Below are positions 3,655 to 10,906 of a stretch of DNA of 25,926 nucleotides, in pieces. The notes under the pieces were generated by a model. That model searched no databases. It was not told where the DNA came from and was given only the letters and a program-made list of their open reading frames with translations. The stretch is from a virus. Location: IMG/VR virus record IMGVR_UViG_3300027779_000143, positions 1-25,926 of that record; one strand, 5' to 3'. Position 1 is the first letter of the stretch, and each line of letters begins with the position of its first letter. The position numbers were made by a program, and so were the translations under genes.

Positions 3655-4848
3655 ATGTTTTATTTAAAAGAACCTAAGTCAAAGAACAAATCGTTAATTA
3701 TTGTGAAATATTATGTCGGCAAAGATAAAAAATATTTTCAATTATCGACAAATATAAAAATAAATCCTAAAAATTGGGATAAAAAAACCAGAAGTCCTAT
3801 AAGAAAGCGTGGTGGTGGTGGTATTGAGTCTTTAAATATCATTGATAAGCTTAATGAGATTAATAAAAAAATCAATATTGTTAGAAGTAAACATGGAAAA
3901 GAATTAACTGTTGGCGATTTAAAGCTAGTCTTTCAAATAAAGAAAGATAGACATGTTTACGCTTTAGATTATTTAGAAGAATTTATTGAAGAAAGAATAA
4001 AAGTCGGTGAAGTTGCTGAAGATTCAATATACAAACATAAAATATTATATAAAAAAATCATGGATTTTGAAGCAGAGACTGAAAGAAATTATAAACTTTC
4101 AGAATTAAAGGCTGATTTCTTTATGAACTTTATAATCTTTTTAAGAGAAAAACACAATTTATTTGACAATACATTATATCGATATATAGGTTTTTTTAAA
4201 ACCTTTCTTAGATGGTGTTTAAAAAAAGGCTACTCCCCTCCTATGGATTTTGTAGATGTACATATTAAAAAGAAAGAAGCGGATGCTGTTGCGCTTTCTC
4301 GTGATGAAGTTATTTTAATTGAGAATGCTAAACTTACAGGCGCAAAAGATAAAGCAAGAGACTTGTTCTTAATAGGAATTTATTCAGGTCAGCGTTGGAG
4401 TGATTACAGCGTTTTTGAAAAAGCAGACGTAAGAGATAACTTAATTTACAAAGTCGCTAAAAAAACTGGTGCAATGAGTTTTATTCCATTAACAGATAAT
4501 TTAAAAAGGGTACTTGACAAATATGAATGGGTTTTACCTAAGATAAGTTCACAGAAATTTAATAAACATATTCAAAAGATATGTAAAAAGTTAAAAATTA
4601 ATGAAGACATTAAATTTACTTACACGAAAGGTAATCAGCGTAAAATAGAGATAAAACAAAAATGGGAAAAAATATCTTCACACACTGCAAGACGTACGTA
4701 TATAACAAGGGCGGCAGAAGATGGTGTTGCTGATCATTTAATAATGGCGGTTTGTGGTATAAGAGATCCAAAAACTCTTAATAAGTATAAGAAAATAAAT
4801 AAAGAAGTACTTTTTGAAAGTACTAAAGGGATGTTCTTGCCTTCTTAA
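3655..4848 (+). CDS. int: Tyrosine-family site-specific integrase
   Basis: 397 aa. An N-terminal arm-binding-like domain (residues 1-95, including KINPKNWDKKTRSP, typical of Bacteroidota integrases) is followed by a SAM-like core-binding domain (about 100-205) and the catalytic domain. Catalytic candidates: R247 in SGQRWSD, K269/K270 in KVAKKTG, H343 and R346 in SSHTARRTY, and nucleophile Y378 in LNKYKKI. The position nine residues before Y378, normally His or Trp, is Ile369 (VCGIRDPKT in place of the usual GH), a departure from consensus. It acts on the adjacent attP and the host tRNA. The start at 3655 leaves the arm repeats and promoter upstream. The 3' end overlaps a convergent minus-strand gene by 26 nt. 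Confidence 0.93.
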   Translation: MFYLKEPKSKNKSLIIVKYYVGKDKKYFQLSTNIKINPKNWDKKTRSPIRKRGGGGIESLNIIDKLNEINKKINIVRSKHGKELTVGDLKLVFQIKKDRHVYALDYLEEFIEERIKVGEVAEDSIYKHKILYKKIMDFEAETERNYKLSELKADFFMNFIIFLREKHNLFDNTLYRYIGFFKTFLRWCLKKGYSPPMDFVDVHIKKKEADAVALSRDEVILIENAKLTGAKDKARDLFLIGIYSGQRWSDYSVFEKADVRDNLIYKVAKKTGAMSFIPLTDNLKRVLDKYEWVLPKISSQKFNKHIQKICKKLKINEDIKFTYTKGNQRKIEIKQKWEKISSHTARRTYITRAAEDGVADHLIMAVCGIRDPKTLNKYKKINKEVLFESTKGMFLPS

Positions 4849-5108: not shown

Positions 5109-5759
5109 TTATCTGGGGGTAAGCTTTTTGATTTGTTTTGCTTTCTTTTTCTTCATTTTGTCTAATTCAAAGTTTGCAGCCATGAAAGTTTTAATATCTT
5201 CTAAATCAGTTTCTAGCGTTTGAATTTTCTTTAAGCCTTCTAATAGTAACTCTTTTTGTTCTTTATTTTGTTCGCTCCAGTATTCATTACTTTTATCAAA
5301 TTTTTCTACTAAACCTTGAAAGCCTTTTAAAATAATTTCTATGTTTTTAGAATAATTAGAATTGTTAGACTTTGTAACGGAGTCATAATAATCCCGATCA
5401 TCACTCATTTTCTTGTCTAAAATAGCTGTATAATGTTTATTATTAATATCCAACTGACTAATCACTTGTTTAGCGGTTACAGTAAGGTCATCATTACCAG
5501 ACATAGACATTGGCAAGCCTTTAACTCTGCTGGTTTCAGTTTTAGTCATTTCTCCTTCGCCATTAATTAACCATTGATAATTAACTTCTGGAAACCCTTT
5601 TAAAATCCTACCAAATGTCTTACTACTTGGCTTTCTGTTTTCACTAATGATTTTTGATATAGTTGTTTGAGAGCTTAAACCAATTTTTCTACAAAATTCG
5701 ATAATTGTCAGCTCGTTTTCAGCTAAAATTCGACTTACTCTTTCGCTAAAATTCGACAT
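5109..5759 (-). CDS. CI-like phage repressor (HTH plus coiled-coil C-terminus)
   Basis: 216 aa. Residues 5-60 form an HTH_3-like domain (FSERVSRILAENELTIIEFCRKIG, then TTISKIISENRKPSSKTFGRIL). After it comes YQWLINGEGEM, the short 'WLLTGEGEM'-type linker typical of Bacteroidota phage repressors. There is no S24/LexA-type peptidase Ser-Lys dyad, so induction would not be by classical self-cleavage. The C-terminal half (about 120-205) is Leu/Lys/Glu-rich and probably a coiled coil for oligomerisation. It is transcribed divergently from the early operon across a 103-bp control region with inverted repeats. Expected role: maintaining lysogeny by blocking the rightward promoter. Confidence 0.85.
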   Translation of the reverse strand: MSNFSERVSRILAENELTIIEFCRKIGLSSQTTISKIISENRKPSSKTFGRILKGFPEVNYQWLINGEGEMTKTETSRVKGLPMSMSGNDDLTVTAKQVISQLDINNKHYTAILDKKMSDDRDYYDSVTKSNNSNYSKNIEIILKGFQGLVEKFDKSNEYWSEQNKEQKELLLEGLKKIQTLETDLEDIKTFMAANFELDKMKKKKAKQIKKLTPR

Positions 5760-5862: not shown

Positions 5863-6117
5863 ATGAATAACTCTATAAAACCAACAAAAGAACAGGAAAT
5901 GATACAAAACATTAAAAAGCTGTATAGTGAAATTAATAATCAAAAAGAATTTTGCCTTTTATTATCTAAAGAATTTGAGTTAAAACCTAACTCGATAAGA
6001 TCAAACTGGCTGTCTACTTATTACAGCGTGCCAGACAAATTTCAGGCAAGAGTTGTAGAAATATTACAAAAAACTATCAAGCAACAAAACAACCGTAAAA
6101 AAATGAAATCAGTATGA
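5863..6117 (+). CDS. First early-operon gene, probable small DNA-binding regulator
   Basis: 84 aa. The sequence NNQKEFCLLLSKEFELKPNSIRSNWLSTYYSVPDKFQARVVEILQKTI follows a pattern I associate with a flavophage family found first in the early operon. It has a helix-turn-helix-like core and an Ile/Val-rich closing helix. A Cro/CII-like role in the lysis-lysogeny switch is inferred from position next to the repressor and is not shown by any diagnostic motif. The tail (KQQNNRKKMK) is basic. The stop overlaps the next start (ATGA at 6114-6117). Confidence 0.6.
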   Translation: MNNSIKPTKEQEMIQNIKKLYSEINNQKEFCLLLSKEFELKPNSIRSNWLSTYYSVPDKFQARVVEILQKTIKQQNNRKKMKSV

Positions 6118-6745: not shown

Positions 6746-6928
6746 ATGACACAAGCAGAATATTTTTTAATGTACGAAGCTTTAGTTAAAAACGTAGTGC
6801 CAAAAATGAAAAAAGTTGAAAAATTACTTCCCGATGCCACTCCTTTTAATGCAGAAGATTTCGTAAATCAAATTTGCAACCTTGCAGAAACTAAAACCAT
6901 AAACCATAAAAATAAAAACCATGATTAA
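6746..6928 (+). CDS. Hypothetical early protein (second MTQAE start)
   Basis: 60 aa. Residues 6-45 look helical with a hydrophobic face (YEALVKNVVPKMKKVEKLL), followed by ATPFNAEDFVNQICNLAE. The last codons (KTINHKNKNH) are simply the A-rich leader of the following gene read in frame, so the functional part probably ends around residue 48. It overlaps the next gene by 8 nt. No family recognised. Confidence 0.6.
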   Translation: MTQAEYFLMYEALVKNVVPKMKKVEKLLPDATPFNAEDFVNQICNLAETKTINHKNKNHD

Positions 6929-7583
6929 ATTTCAAAAACCACCGACACAGACTAATAATTATTTAGCACCAGCGGGAACGCATATCGCTAGATGTTTTAA
7001 AATGATTCATCTAGGAACTTTACAAGCTGAATACAAAGGAGAGAAAAAAGAGAAAAACGGACTTTGGGTCGAGTTTGAATTACCGGGCGAAATGAAAGTT
7101 TTTAGAGAAGGAGAGATAGAAAAGCCAGCGGCTGCATCTATTGAATATAATTTAACTTCATACGAAACAGCTAAATTATTTATTCATCTAAACACTTGGC
7201 TAGGTCGAACTTTAAGTCCTCAAGAAATAGACGACTTTGACGTGAGTTCTCAATTAGGTGAACCTTGCATGTTAACGATTGTGCATAATACATCTTCTAA
7301 TGGCAGAACATACGCTAACATTAACGCTGTCTCAGGATTGCCTAAAGGTGTGATTTGTCCAAAGCAGATCAATCCAACTTTTGTCTGGGATTATGATGAT
7401 AATTTTGATATTCAGGCTTTTGATTCTTTTCCGCATTTTATACAAGAAAAAATAAAATCTACTCCTGAATGGATATTAAAGACGGAAGAAATAAAAGAAA
7501 TCAATGTGAACGCTCCACATGTTGAAGAAGTTCGACAAGAAATAAGCGAAGCTATTCATGGTCATGACGATCTACCATTTTAA
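6921..7583 (+). CDS. Phage replication protein, probable ssDNA-binding (SSB-like) with acidic tip
   Basis: 220 aa. The N-terminal half follows a family widespread in phages: LAPAGTHIARCFKMIHLGT, then GLWVEFELPGE, then LGEPCMLTIVHNTSSNGRTYANI, then SGLPKG. This suggests a single OB-like beta domain. The extreme C-terminus, after an acidic linker, is HDDLPF, matching the DDIPF-type tip by which bacterial SSB recruits partners. I therefore read it as an SSB-like or recombination-associated DNA-binding protein. It lies directly upstream of the replication initiator genes. Family recognition is good; the SSB assignment is inference from fold pattern and tip. Confidence 0.7.
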   Translation: MIKFQKPPTQTNNYLAPAGTHIARCFKMIHLGTLQAEYKGEKKEKNGLWVEFELPGEMKVFREGEIEKPAAASIEYNLTSYETAKLFIHLNTWLGRTLSPQEIDDFDVSSQLGEPCMLTIVHNTSSNGRTYANINAVSGLPKGVICPKQINPTFVWDYDDNFDIQAFDSFPHFIQEKIKSTPEWILKTEEIKEINVNAPHVEEVRQEISEAIHGHDDLPF

Positions 7584-7603: not shown

Positions 7604-8050
7604 ATGGAAACATCAATACAAAACAGAAACACTTCATACAGGAATATTATTAATAAAATTCCTAATAAAAGGAAACAAATTTATGAGATAATACTAAAGC
7701 ATAATGGCATAACAGCACAAGAGATAAGTAACTTATATCGTTTGCCTATAAATCAAATTACTGGTAGGATCACTGAGCTTAAAGACATGTGTTTTATAAA
7801 AGAATCAGTATTACATATTAATCATCAATCCGGTAATTATTGCACAAGTTATGTGGCAGTAAAGAAAACAGAAGAATTTATGTTTTTAACTAACGCAAAA
7901 TATTCCGCTCTTGTTAATATGAAAAAGTCTTTAGAATTTGATTACCACTATGGACTTTCTGAATACACAATGAAATATATTAAGAAAGAACTTAAGAAAA
8001 TAGAATCAAAAATAACAAGACTTGACACGTTGCAAAAAATAGCTGCATGA
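7604..8050 (+). CDS. Winged helix-turn-helix DNA-binding protein
   Basis: 148 aa. After a polar start, residues 20-70 read as a winged HTH: KRKQIYEIILKHNGITAQEI, SNLYRLPINQITGRITELKD, MCFIKES. This is the 'GiTa.Ei...l.......t.Ri.eL...g.I' pattern of MarR/ArsR-like helix-turn-helix domains. The C-terminal part (about 110-145) is a Lys/Glu-rich helix. It probably regulates early transcription or takes part in replication control. The stop overlaps the next ATG (4 nt). Confidence 0.65.
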   Translation: METSIQNRNTSYRNIINKIPNKRKQIYEIILKHNGITAQEISNLYRLPINQITGRITELKDMCFIKESVLHINHQSGNYCTSYVAVKKTEEFMFLTNAKYSALVNMKKSLEFDYHYGLSEYTMKYIKKELKKIESKITRLDTLQKIAA

Positions 8051-8457
8051 TAGATATACGAAATATTTCTGAAGTTGTTAATTCAGTAATGAATTGCGAC
8101 ATGTCTTCTTCAAGTAGAAAAAGAAACAAAGTAAACGCTATTAAAATATATAGTTATATCTGTCGAAAAATTACTTCTTCTACTTATGAAGACATCGCGT
8201 TTGTAATTAACAAACATTATGCGAATATTATACATCATGAAAAGAGTTTAGAGAACATAATTCAACATGATCAAGGATTAAATGATGCTACTAAATACTG
8301 CATGAGACTTTGTCGAGACATGCTCGGTAGACATACTTTAAATTATAAAGATAATGTTCATTTGTATTGGACAAAGCTCACACTAGAACAACAAAAAAGA
8401 ATAAGTCATTCAGTGATGAGATATACAAACGCAAATAAAAAGAAGAAAAATGTATAA
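8047..8457 (+). CDS. DnaA domain IV-like DNA-binding protein
   Basis: 136 aa. The central segment STYEDIAFVINKHYANIIHH followed by EKSLENII resembles the C-terminal DNA-binding domain of DnaA (helix, then '..HsTV.ha...v'), without any AAA+ ATPase part. Stand-alone proteins of this kind are found in flavophage replication modules and may bind origin repeats. The tail is basic (NANKKKKN). It is coupled by short overlaps to the HTH gene upstream and the DUF1376-like gene downstream (8 nt). Confidence 0.62.
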   Translation: MIDIRNISEVVNSVMNCDMSSSSRKRNKVNAIKIYSYICRKITSSTYEDIAFVINKHYANIIHHEKSLENIIQHDQGLNDATKYCMRLCRDMLGRHTLNYKDNVHLYWTKLTLEQQKRISHSVMRYTNANKKKKNV

Positions 8458-9139
8458 TAATCCACCAGCTTTTCAATTCTATCCACAAGACTTTTTAACT
8501 GGTGTCATGTATCTAACAATGGAAGAAAGAGGTCTTTATATAACGCTTCTTTCTATTCAATGGAGCAAAAACGTAATACCCAAAAAAAGGCTAGCCTTAA
8601 TTCTTGGCATGGAATGGGAAAACGTTCCTGAATTAATTAAAGAAAAATTCATTGACAAAGGCGATTACTTGATTAATGAACGTCTTTTTAATGTTTCAGA
8701 AGATCGCAAAACATATGTAGAAAAACAGAGACTTAATGGACAAAAAGGTGGAAGACCTAAAACCCAAACTAAAGCCAAAAAAAGGTCTTCATTGAAGATG
8801 AAGATGAAGATAGAAGATGAAATAGAAAATATAGATATAGTATATCCTTATTTAAATGACGAATTTATTCAAATCTGGAATCAATTTAAAATCTATAAAA
8901 GCAAAGAATTTAATTTTAAATACAAATCTACTCAAAGCGAACAAGCAGCATTATCTAAACTTAGCAACGATTCAGAGAATGAAGCACACGCAATAGAATT
9001 AATAAAACTAGCAATGGCAAACGGATGGAAAGGAATCTATCCAGATAAAACAAACAACAATGGGAGAAAAAATAATACCAATAAAACAAGCTATACAACA
9101 AACTTCAAAGAAGGTCTTATTAACTCGCTACAATCCTAG
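8450..9139 (+). CDS. DUF1376-type replication initiation protein
   Basis: 229 aa. The N-terminus PAFQFYPQDFLTGVMYLTME then ERGLYITLLSIQW is the DUF1376 signature, a domain common in phage O-like replication proteins. After a low-complexity Lys/Met/Glu linker (KMKMKIEDEIE, made by a GATGAA-type repeat) comes a second domain, FIQIWNQFKIYKSKEFNFKY ... ELIKLAMANGWKGIYP, often paired with it in Bacteroidota phages. It is expected to bind the origin and recruit the host helicase. The 3' 80 nt overlap the next gene in another frame. Confidence 0.8.
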   Translation: MYNNPPAFQFYPQDFLTGVMYLTMEERGLYITLLSIQWSKNVIPKKRLALILGMEWENVPELIKEKFIDKGDYLINERLFNVSEDRKTYVEKQRLNGQKGGRPKTQTKAKKRSSLKMKMKIEDEIENIDIVYPYLNDEFIQIWNQFKIYKSKEFNFKYKSTQSEQAALSKLSNDSENEAHAIELIKLAMANGWKGIYPDKTNNNGRKNNTNKTSYTTNFKEGLINSLQS

Positions 9140-9551
9140 CAACTGTATGACTCATGCTGGTAAACTTGTTTCTGTAACCGATGCAATAAACAGTCCATCT
9201 CATTCATTAGGTAAAATACAACGTGAACAATCTAAAAAGTTTACAGAAGGTTTGATTTTACTATGGTTAATTTATTTAAACGACATATTAAATCTTAACA
9301 AGTCAATGAGTGAAGAACAAATGAAACTTGCTGCCGTTCTTATTTGTGAAGAATTCTACATGCTTAAAATGGCTGATCTAACTCTATTGTTTAAAAGAAT
9401 AATATCAGGTCAATTTGGCGAATTTTACGAAAGATTAAGCATCGATAAAGTTCTTACATTCTTTAGAGAATATCGAGAAGAACGATTTGAAATAGCAATT
9501 GATCAAAGTTCAAGAGATCATATTAATAATAAACAAAACGAAAAAATATAA
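9060..9551 (+). CDS. DUF6633-like replication-associated protein
   Basis: 163 aa. The segment LWLIYLNDILNLNKSMSEEQ, then MLKMADLTLLFKRIISGQFG, then EFYERLSIDKVLTFFREYRE matches a Bacteroidota phage/mobile-element family (DUF6633 as I recall it). The N-terminal part VLLTRYNPSNCMTHAGKL also fits that family. I therefore keep the early start at 9060 although it overlaps the upstream gene by 80 nt; a later ATG at 9147 would avoid the overlap but cut the conserved region. Position after the initiator suggests a helicase-loader or regulatory role, which is inference. Confidence 0.68.
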   Translation: MGEKIIPIKQAIQQTSKKVLLTRYNPSNCMTHAGKLVSVTDAINSPSHSLGKIQREQSKKFTEGLILLWLIYLNDILNLNKSMSEEQMKLAAVLICEEFYMLKMADLTLLFKRIISGQFGEFYERLSIDKVLTFFREYREERFEIAIDQSSRDHINNKQNEKI

Positions 9552-9553
9552 TT

Positions 9554-10051
9554 ATGGCATATAAAAACCCAGAAGATCAAGCTGCTGCATCAAGAAGGCA
9601 TTACGAAAAAAACAGAGCAAAAGTAATAGAAGCATCTAAACAAAAAAGATTAGCAAATCCAGAAAAAAATAAAGAATATCAAAAGAAATCATATCATAAA
9701 CCTTCAGAAATTGAAGGAGTTTCTAAGGGTGCTTTGAAAAAAAGAAAACTTAGAAAACTAAACCCAGAAAAATATAAAGCAATTAATAAAAAAAGTAAAA
9801 TTAAAATGATAAAACAAACACCTATGATTCTGTACTGGGAAAACTACATTCAGTTTTTAGAAATAAATCAGAGATTTAACATGGTATCAATTTTAAAATC
9901 TATAAAACCAGAGTTAGATAACAACATAATTTTATTTAAAGTGCCTAATAATGTTTCTAAGATTCAAATTTTAGAAGAAAAAAACCTATTAGAATACTTA
10001 AAATTAAAGTTTAATAATCTTGATTTAAAGTTTAGCATTACTATAAATTAA
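9554..10051 (+). CDS. Basic N-terminus fused to a DnaX (tau) C-terminal-like domain
   Basis: 165 aa. Residues 1-85 are Lys/Arg/Asn-rich (SRRHYEKNRAKVIEAS, RLANPEKNKEYQKK, LNPEKYKAINKKS), a repeated basic pattern seen in phage DNA-binding and HNH-associated proteins. Residues 90-164 read MILYWENYIQF, MVSILKSIKPEL, IILFKVPNN, LLEYLKLKFNNLDLKFSITIN. This series (W..Y, a helix ending in KPxL, a VPN strand, LL.yL....NN..L...I..N) closely recalls the C-terminal domain of Bacteroidota DNA polymerase III tau (DnaX), as I remember it. No ATPase or HNH catalytic motif is present. A role in hijacking the host replicase is inferred. An A-rich leader precedes the ATG. Confidence 0.55.
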   Translation: MAYKNPEDQAAASRRHYEKNRAKVIEASKQKRLANPEKNKEYQKKSYHKPSEIEGVSKGALKKRKLRKLNPEKYKAINKKSKIKMIKQTPMILYWENYIQFLEINQRFNMVSILKSIKPELDNNIILFKVPNNVSKIQILEEKNLLEYLKLKFNNLDLKFSITIN

Positions 10052-10068
10052 AACAAAAAAATATAATT

Positions 10069-10401
10069 ATGAAAAGATCACAAATTAACGACATGCAAGT
10101 TTATTGCAGTTACAATATGGGTAAAGCAGATTTAAAGAGCCTTAGTTTATTATTTCTTGAAATGGCTGAAAACATGAATCTTGATGTTCAGGATATTTAC
10201 GAGGTTGGTTACAATTCAATGAGTGGTTATACTTATATTTCTTTAGAAAACAGTATTGATCTTGCAAGTATAATGGGCGAACCTGTACAGTTTTTAGTTA
10301 CTGATTCAGAAGAAGGGACTGAATACTTTTTAGAAACTTATGACGAAGCACTTGCAAAGTGTGAAGAAATTGAAAAAGTAAATATCAAAAGTTTTAATTA
10401 A
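10069..10401 (+). CDS. Hypothetical early protein
   Basis: 110 aa, acidic after a short basic start (MKRSQINDMQVYCSYNMGKA). A central alpha-beta-like region (LLFLEMAENMNLDVQDIYEV, SGYTYISLENSIDLASIMGE, VQFLVTDSEEGTEYFLETYD) ends with a charged helix EALAKCEEIEK. The last part resembles the short 'D..tGeE.f.e.y.eA......i' pattern common in phage proteins of unknown role. No motif allows a function. It lies 17 nt after the preceding gene and uses the same A-rich leader ending TATAATTATG. Confidence 0.6.
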   Translation: MKRSQINDMQVYCSYNMGKADLKSLSLLFLEMAENMNLDVQDIYEVGYNSMSGYTYISLENSIDLASIMGEPVQFLVTDSEEGTEYFLETYDEALAKCEEIEKVNIKSFN

Positions 10402-10418
10402 TAAACATATAAATAATT

Positions 10419-10556
10419 ATGATGGAAACAAAAGAAGTAGAATCTGCTTGCTGCGGATCAACAATATTATGGAATGTAACCGATGACGAAATACAATACG
10501 GAAGATGTTTAGACTGTAAAGAATGGAGCGAAGTTGTAGAACAAACACATAATTAA
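10419..10556 (+). CDS. Small four-cysteine zinc-ribbon-like protein
   Basis: 45 aa from ATG at 10419 (a second ATG follows at 10422) to TAA at 10554-10556. Cysteines: ESACCGS near the start and GRCLDCKEWSE near the end, that is CC-x18-C-x2-C, a plausible zinc ribbon. Small 'CCG ... C..CkE..e' proteins are common in phage replication regions. The stop overlaps the next start (TAATG). Function unknown. Confidence 0.62.
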   Translation: MMETKEVESACCGSTILWNVTDDEIQYGRCLDCKEWSEVVEQTHN

Positions 10557-10906
10557 TGTACACGAAAAAATACCAAACTAGAAATAAATACGGAGCAGTA
10601 AAACAAACATATAATGGCAGATCATATCACAGTAAAAAAGAGGCTGCTTACGCCCAAGAATTAGACTGGCGATTAAAAGCTGGTGAGATTATTGAAATTA
10701 TACCCCAATTCAAATTAGAACTTTATGTTAATGAAATTAAAATCTGTAATTACTACATGGATTTTAAAGTCATATTGCCTGATGAATCTGTTGAATTAAT
10801 AGAAGTTAAAGGATTTCCTACGGCACTTTGGAAACTTAAGTGGAAGTTAACTGAAGCACTTTTGGAAGAACTTGATCCTAATGCCAAACTAATACTCGTA
10901 CAATGA
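10556..10906 (+). CDS. DUF1064-family PD-(D/E)xK-like endonuclease
   Basis: 116 aa. The order of motifs follows DUF1064: YNGRSYHSKKEAAYAQELDW (helix with the conserved KKEA..y.eL), AGEIIEIIPQFKLEL, YYMDFKVILPD and VELIEVKGF. The Asp in YMDF and Glu/Lys in IEVKG match the PD-(D/E)xK nuclease core; the family includes phage Holliday-junction-resolvase-like enzymes (RusA/RuvC analogues). In a phage replication module it would resolve branched intermediates before packaging. The length is normal for the family. The stop overlaps the next ATG by 4 nt. Confidence 0.82.
   Translation: MYTKKYQTRNKYGAVKQTYNGRSYHSKKEAAYAQELDWRLKAGEIIEIIPQFKLELYVNEIKICNYYMDFKVILPDESVELIEVKGFPTALWKLKWKLTEALLEELDPNAKLILVQ

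Follow-up and report, generated by a model that had tools for sequence, protein, structure and literature searches.

Gene organization of the locus

The window analysed here is the whole stretch of 25,926 nt of an IMG/VR virus record, a metagenomic fragment of 25.9 kb. The features discussed in the text are listed in Table 1. The gene under study, P0001, starts with an ATG at position 9554, ends with a stop codon at 10049–10051 and encodes a protein of 165 residues, in agreement with an earlier sequence-only reading of this DNA. The motifs named in that reading (YWENY, SILKSIKPEL, VPNN and LLEYLKLKFNNLDLKFSITIN) are all found in the translation. The opposite strand is interrupted by many stops, so that reverse reading is closed. 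The operon is close-packed, the start codon of P0001 being located 2 bases past the stop codon of the upstream gene.

Table 1. Features of the P0001 locus and of the surrounding phage DNA.
Feature	Position	Strand	Basis
Tyrosine integrase	3655–4848		
Divergent gene, looks like an HTH repressor	5109–5759	minus	sequence
O-like (DUF1376) primosomal protein, probable replication initiator	8450–9139	+	Pfam, PHROGs
Conserved protein, left flank of the cargo slot (phrog_35728, weak DUF6633)	9060–9551	+	
16-base leader AAAAAATATAATTATG, first copy; last bases are the P0001 start codon	9541–9556	+	
Accessory cassette, 867 bp (P0001 gene and next ORF)	9552–10418	.	comparison with L123
P0001 gene, 165 aa; basic leader of HNH type, basic linker and globular C-terminal domain of DnaX	9554–10051	+	
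P0001 residues 1–44, leader common to phage HNH endonucleases	9554–9685	+	identity, phmmer
P0001 residues 45–86, very basic linker	9686–9811	+	
P0001 residues 87–165, globular C-terminal domain of DnaX (tau), stopping short of the conserved DnaX tail	9812–10048	+	hhalign, profile, AF2
16-base leader AAAAAATATAATTATG, second copy; last bases are the start codon of the next ORF	10056–10071	+	
110-aa ORF of no known family, same cassette as P0001	10069–10401	+	
Small zinc-ribbon-like protein, right flank, also in the relative L123	10419–10556	+	
DUF1064 / Holliday-junction-resolvase PHROG, right flank	10556–10906	+	

The phage is probably temperate, since its genes include a tyrosine integrase and a divergent HTH-repressor-like gene. 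The terminase is closest to those of the Nonlabens phages P12024L/S (53%), followed by those of Riemerella phages; this kinship and the placement of P0001 in the DnaX tree described below both suggest that the host is a flavobacterium. Neither a polymerase nor a helicase was seen among the proteins examined and annotated in this phage, which for this reason probably replicates with the machinery of the host.

The product of the gene at 6921–7583 (+) is a phage replication protein of the NGO0469 family (NF046043, E 1.2e-53); it ends with DDLPF, a C-terminus similar to the acidic SSB tip. The gene at 8047–8457 (+) encodes an HTH protein that resembles DnaA domain IV but is devoid of AAA+ (Pfam Bac_DnaA_C, E 9.5e-8; C-terminus of TIGR00362, E 1.5e-6). 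The P0001 operon holds motor-less pieces of both DnaA and DnaX.

P0001 occupies an optional slot

P0001 is flanked by initiator and resolvase genes, as the sequence-only reading had indicated: the DUF1376 protein is encoded upstream, and the DUF1064/Holliday-junction-resolvase protein downstream. The DUF1064 protein of a relative phage, L123, is 97% identical to that of the P0001 phage. In L123, the left-flank gene stops at base 76 and the zinc-ribbon gene starts at base 98, so that the two are separated by 21 bp, whereas the same slot measures 867 bp (9552–10418) in the P0001 phage. Because a close relative does without it, the P0001 gene is optional cargo in the replication operon, and not a core replication gene. 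The 110-aa ORF that shares the cassette has no match in Pfam, PHROGs, NCBIfam, viral contigs or phage records.

The slot, delimited by homologues of the left-flank gene and by the DUF1064 gene, is hypervariable across flavobacterial-type phages (L087–L089, L124–L150). Slot contents, named as read from the translations, include small zinc-ribbon genes, DNA methyltransferase-like genes (L131 and L150) and a PAPS-reductase-like gene (L135). Slot genes with translated products ending with the SSB-like tip DDLPF occur in L133, L137, L144, L145 and L150. The 16-base leader AAAAAATATAATTATG is found in two copies only in the 25,926-nt record; they are 515 bp apart and exactly flank the P0001 gene. 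This sequence could serve as a context for translation starts, or could be a trace of the way in which genes were added one at a time.

The N-terminal half: an HNH-type leader and a basic linker

The N-terminal leader (MAYKNPEDQAAASRRHYEKN...) is related to those of free-standing phage HNH endonucleases. Residues 1–42 are 48–57% identical to the endonuclease leaders found in L002–L006, and the best phmmer match to an HNH leader has an E value of ~1e-10. The likeness covers the first 42–44 residues of P0001. In L002–L006, the leader runs on into a cysteine/DH-containing HNH domain. In contrast, the P0001 translation has no HNH domain, no cysteine and no HNH family match, and bears a DnaX domain; the lack of an HNH motif rules out that P0001 is an HNH endonuclease.

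The linker has no Pfam match and belongs to no known family. Residues 1–84 include 27 K/R and 9 D/E residues, with a computed pI of 10.3, and the N-terminal half is as basic as the sequence-only reading had described it. As these residues are rich in K/R, P0001 likely binds nucleic acid through this half, judging from charge and from the kinship of the leader only. The DNA-binding base postulated earlier thus corresponds to a basic front that does exist; that residues 1–44 of this front are the leader of HNH endonucleases had been overlooked.

The C-terminal half is homologous to DnaX

The sole NCBIfam match of P0001 is NF011531 (PRK14971, Bacteroidota DNA polymerase III gamma/tau), with an E value of 1.1e-4 and a score of 21.2 bits, which is under the curated family cut-off of 685. 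No convincing match was obtained in Pfam and PHROGs. For a comparison independent of the phage protein, 80 Bacteroidota dnaX loci were fetched with an approximate DnaX N-terminal probe, used for fetching alone, and a profile of the DnaX C-domain was built from them, leaving the phage sequence out. Among 7,966 frames, P0001 was the single non-dnaX frame matched by this profile (E 1.6e-9), scoring 39.1 bits, whereas none of 20,000 shuffles of residues 85–165 scored above 17.8 bits. Alignment by hhalign with 39 DnaX C-domains gave a probability of 97.5% (E 6.1e-12), residues 87–165 corresponding to columns 8–88. P0001 alone, used as a query against 396 Bacteroidota genomes, yielded 35 matches, all within frames that, judged by their size, are dnaX (~600 aa, or ~220–250 aa where a frameshift splits the gene). 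Nearly all of these matches end at query residue 165.

The sequence-only reading had likened residues 90–164 to the C-terminal domain of Bacteroidota tau. The NCBIfam, profile, hhalign, shuffle and genome-query results, together with the tree described below, establish homology over residues 87–165, and no confident match of this part to an unrelated nuclease domain was found. The absence of the ATPase domains, also pointed out in that reading, holds as well: AAA+ domains I–III with their Walker motifs are missing from the 165-residue protein, the family match of which is confined to positions 423–574 of the 614 of the profile.

In many dnaX genes (Flavobacterium, Aquimarina, Chryseobacterium and others), the first frame stops at ~360 aa, often immediately past a stretch encoding EKKK/KKKK that is AAA-rich, and the C-terminal part of tau sits in another frame (for instance, at 6056–6772 in L008). 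Split genes of this kind occur in L007–L014, L026, L030–L034, L038, L043, L046, L059, L065, L078, L085 and L086, and look like cases in which gamma and tau are both produced, either by programmed frameshifting or by transcriptional slippage.

In a maximum-likelihood tree, drawn from 92 usable columns only and in which the P0001 branch is long, the phage domain nests within the DnaX clade of Flavobacteriaceae/Weeksellaceae (95/98). It is 17–31% identical to the DnaX domains with which it was aligned. Given this nesting, the domain most likely derives from a flavobacterial host dnaX and, given the low identity, was not acquired recently. It is extremely improbable that P0001 arose as an assembly artefact, through the joining of phage DNA to a piece of bacterial dnaX. 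Although the virus record is metagenomic and a second copy was not found, two misjoins would be required, the DnaX part closely resembles none of the dnaX genes fetched and ends at a stop codon of its own ahead of the tail, and ordinary phage genes follow P0001 downstream.

Conserved and missing parts of the DnaX domain

P0001 spans 17 conserved DnaX columns and keeps 12 of them, whereas the commonest residue is matched in 10 of 69 variable columns. Since conserved columns are kept far more often than variable ones, the pattern suggests that the fold of the domain was kept under selection. AlphaFold2 modelled residues 81–165 with a mean pLDDT of 87.6 and the element order H-H-E-E-H-H-E, and the C-terminal domain is predicted with confidence, in a fold that looks pseudo-KH-like.

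These data bear on whether P0001 is a chance chimera, that is, an HNH-type gene that lost its nuclease domain, was fused to a piece of dnaX and is now functionless. A gene known from one example, housed in an optional slot and encoding neither a nuclease motif nor a cysteine, might have such a history. However, the frame is intact, the preference for conserved columns persists at the low identity given above, and both the join and the end of P0001 sit at domain boundaries, which makes a functionless chimera quite improbable.

P0001 ends at SITIN, where a DnaX tail of ~36 residues would come next. Of the conserved columns of this tail, 15 out of 15 are absent, and the sole invariant column among the 39 DnaX sequences, an Asn, lies in the missing part. 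In the AlphaFold2 model of an intact flavobacterial DnaX domain, the chain is ordered to approximately residue 89 and continues into a tail with a pLDDT of 53–58; the end of P0001 coincides with this order/disorder boundary. What had been called a tau tail is therefore the globular tau domain, and the similarity halts before the conserved DnaX tail, a point missed in the sequence-only reading.

In E. coli tau, residues 500–621 form the globular domain, which is directly preceded by a DNA-binding region, and the last 22–23 residues (622–643) bind the tail domain of polymerase alpha; a second contact links the globular domain to the polymerase fingers (PMC4703070). Applied to Bacteroidota by analogy, this contact map may not hold.

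The function originally proposed for P0001 was a hijack of the replicase, in which the protein, sitting on phage DNA, would draw to the phage forks either the polymerase of the host or some other partner of tau. The DnaX homology underlying this proposal stands; moreover, the DnaX C-domain is coupled to a basic leader in a replication operon adjoining an O-like initiator, and neither a polymerase nor a helicase is annotated in the phage, which probably uses those of the host. Recruitment by the known tau–alpha contact is nevertheless not favoured, because the E. coli tail that binds the polymerase (622–643; PMC4703070) has no counterpart in P0001. In addition, the gene is dispensable in the close relative L123. 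The globular domain of P0001 may still touch the polymerase, by analogy with the E. coli domain that touches the fingers. Taken together, we consider recruitment unlikely.

Structural neighbours of the phage domain

The predicted P0001 domain was compared with the PDB using Foldseek. DnaA domain I came first among the 50 matches listed (4tps chains, probability 0.99–1.00, TM 0.60–0.63), which also included DnaA domain I 2e0g (probability 0.97) and DciA (probability 0.91–0.93). E values of the DnaA domain I matches range from 0.02 to 0.12. E. coli tau domain V is not among the 50 matches listed. As all Foldseek matches listed are above E 0.001, the predicted domain is taken to resemble DnaA domain I and DciA in fold only. 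The intact DnaX domain retrieved the same set of neighbours.

P0001 is not a member of either family by sequence. Its score against a profile of ten host DnaA domain I sequences (5.7 bits) is lower than that of hundreds of shuffles, and no Pfam match was obtained to DnaA_N (PF11638) or to DciA (DUF721), to which the fold match is also weak.

A domain acting like DnaA domain I or DciA could help bring the host DnaB to the phage origin. Such a helicase adaptor would fit the closest solved structures among the 50 listed, and the phage encodes an O-like initiator as well as a protein resembling DnaA domain IV. However, none of the structural matches listed falls below E 0.001, the sequence is that of DnaX rather than of DnaA domain I, and E. 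coli tau, according to PMC11470591, meets DnaB by domain IV and not by domain V. An adaptor function of this type is accordingly judged rather improbable.

Search for additional copies

P0001 is a single example across viral contigs, phage records, plasmids and several hundred Bacteroidota genomes. In viral contigs, the whole protein retrieved HNH leaders only and the C-domain query retrieved nothing; scanning with the flavobacterial DnaX C-domain alignments A3 and A4 revealed no second copy, in scans that rely on short conserved peptides and that diverged copies can escape. The C-domain query had no match in bacterial genome contigs, phage records matched the leader only, and neither plasmids nor an HMM scan of loci carrying the right-flank gene yielded a further copy. 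The lone DnaX C-domain match in phage records, MT838688 (L099), was discarded: this scaffold, which comes from human faeces and is labelled 'Bacteriophage sp.' in GenBank, carries a full-length bacterial-type dnaX and seems to be bacterial DNA deposited under a phage name.

In almost every one of 301 Flavobacteriaceae genomes, the A1 profile had a single strong match. Weak extra matches to the DnaX C-domain lie outside dnaX in L106 (G124:C25:7592-7744, E 2.6e-4) and in L107 (G114:C13:240186-240467, E 4.0e-4), and may be due to chance. No account of a stand-alone phage DnaX C-domain was found in the open literature, most subscription journals being outside the search.

Proposed mode of action

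P0001 probably acts on the DNA-copying machinery of the host. We favour a competitor over a recruiter, a helicase adaptor or a functionless chimera. P0001 would be a DNA-bound mimic of a tau domain that docks on a partner in the host replisome and competes with the host tau, a reading to which we assign a probability of roughly 0.4. The protein would mimic the globular C-terminal (domain V-like) module of host DnaX/tau, and would be held on DNA by the basic front of 84 residues, the first 44 of which come from an HNH-endonuclease leader. The DnaX-derived domain would dock at the site used by the globular domain of host tau, the candidate partners being polymerase alpha (fingers) and/or the helicase or helicase loader. 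Because the polymerase-holding tail is missing, no tethering of the polymerase is expected, and competition with host tau for the shared partner would instead loosen or redirect the host replisome, favouring phage replication. More tentatively, a phage protein built from the host tau C-terminal domain, with the tail cut and a DNA-binding leader added, might steer which DNA the host replisome copies, and P0001 might be the first of a class of tau mimics.

Comparison with known proteins and significance

Phages block or borrow parts of the host replisome by unrelated small proteins. P0001 differs from Bacteroidota DnaX (NF011531, PRK14971), to which it is homologous across the whole globular C-terminal domain and in the flavobacterial clade of which it nests, in lacking the AAA+ domains and the conserved tail and in having another N-terminal half.

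Inhibitors of host replication encoded by phages include gp104 of phage 77, acting on DnaI, gp168 of Twort, acting on DnaN, and gp8 of N4, acting on the clamp loader, as reported in PMC3594737. Compared by description, these are small proteins that act on the clamp loader, the clamp or the helicase loader, and the mode proposed for P0001 is alike; unlike P0001, they are not described in the text consulted as made from a host tau domain. Small phage proteins with such targets are therefore already known, whereas one derived from the host tau domain is, as far as searched, new.

It appears that the phage acquired a structural module from the clamp loader of its host, dropped the motor and the polymerase-binding tail, and set the remainder on a leader predicted to bind DNA. 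P0001 also provides a tangible instance of a phage gene of HNH type that was re-armed with a domain of the host. Should P0001 act on the replisome, it would help to reveal which partners the globular C-domain of tau binds in Bacteroidota, and would provide a natural dominant-negative tool to separate the functions of tau.
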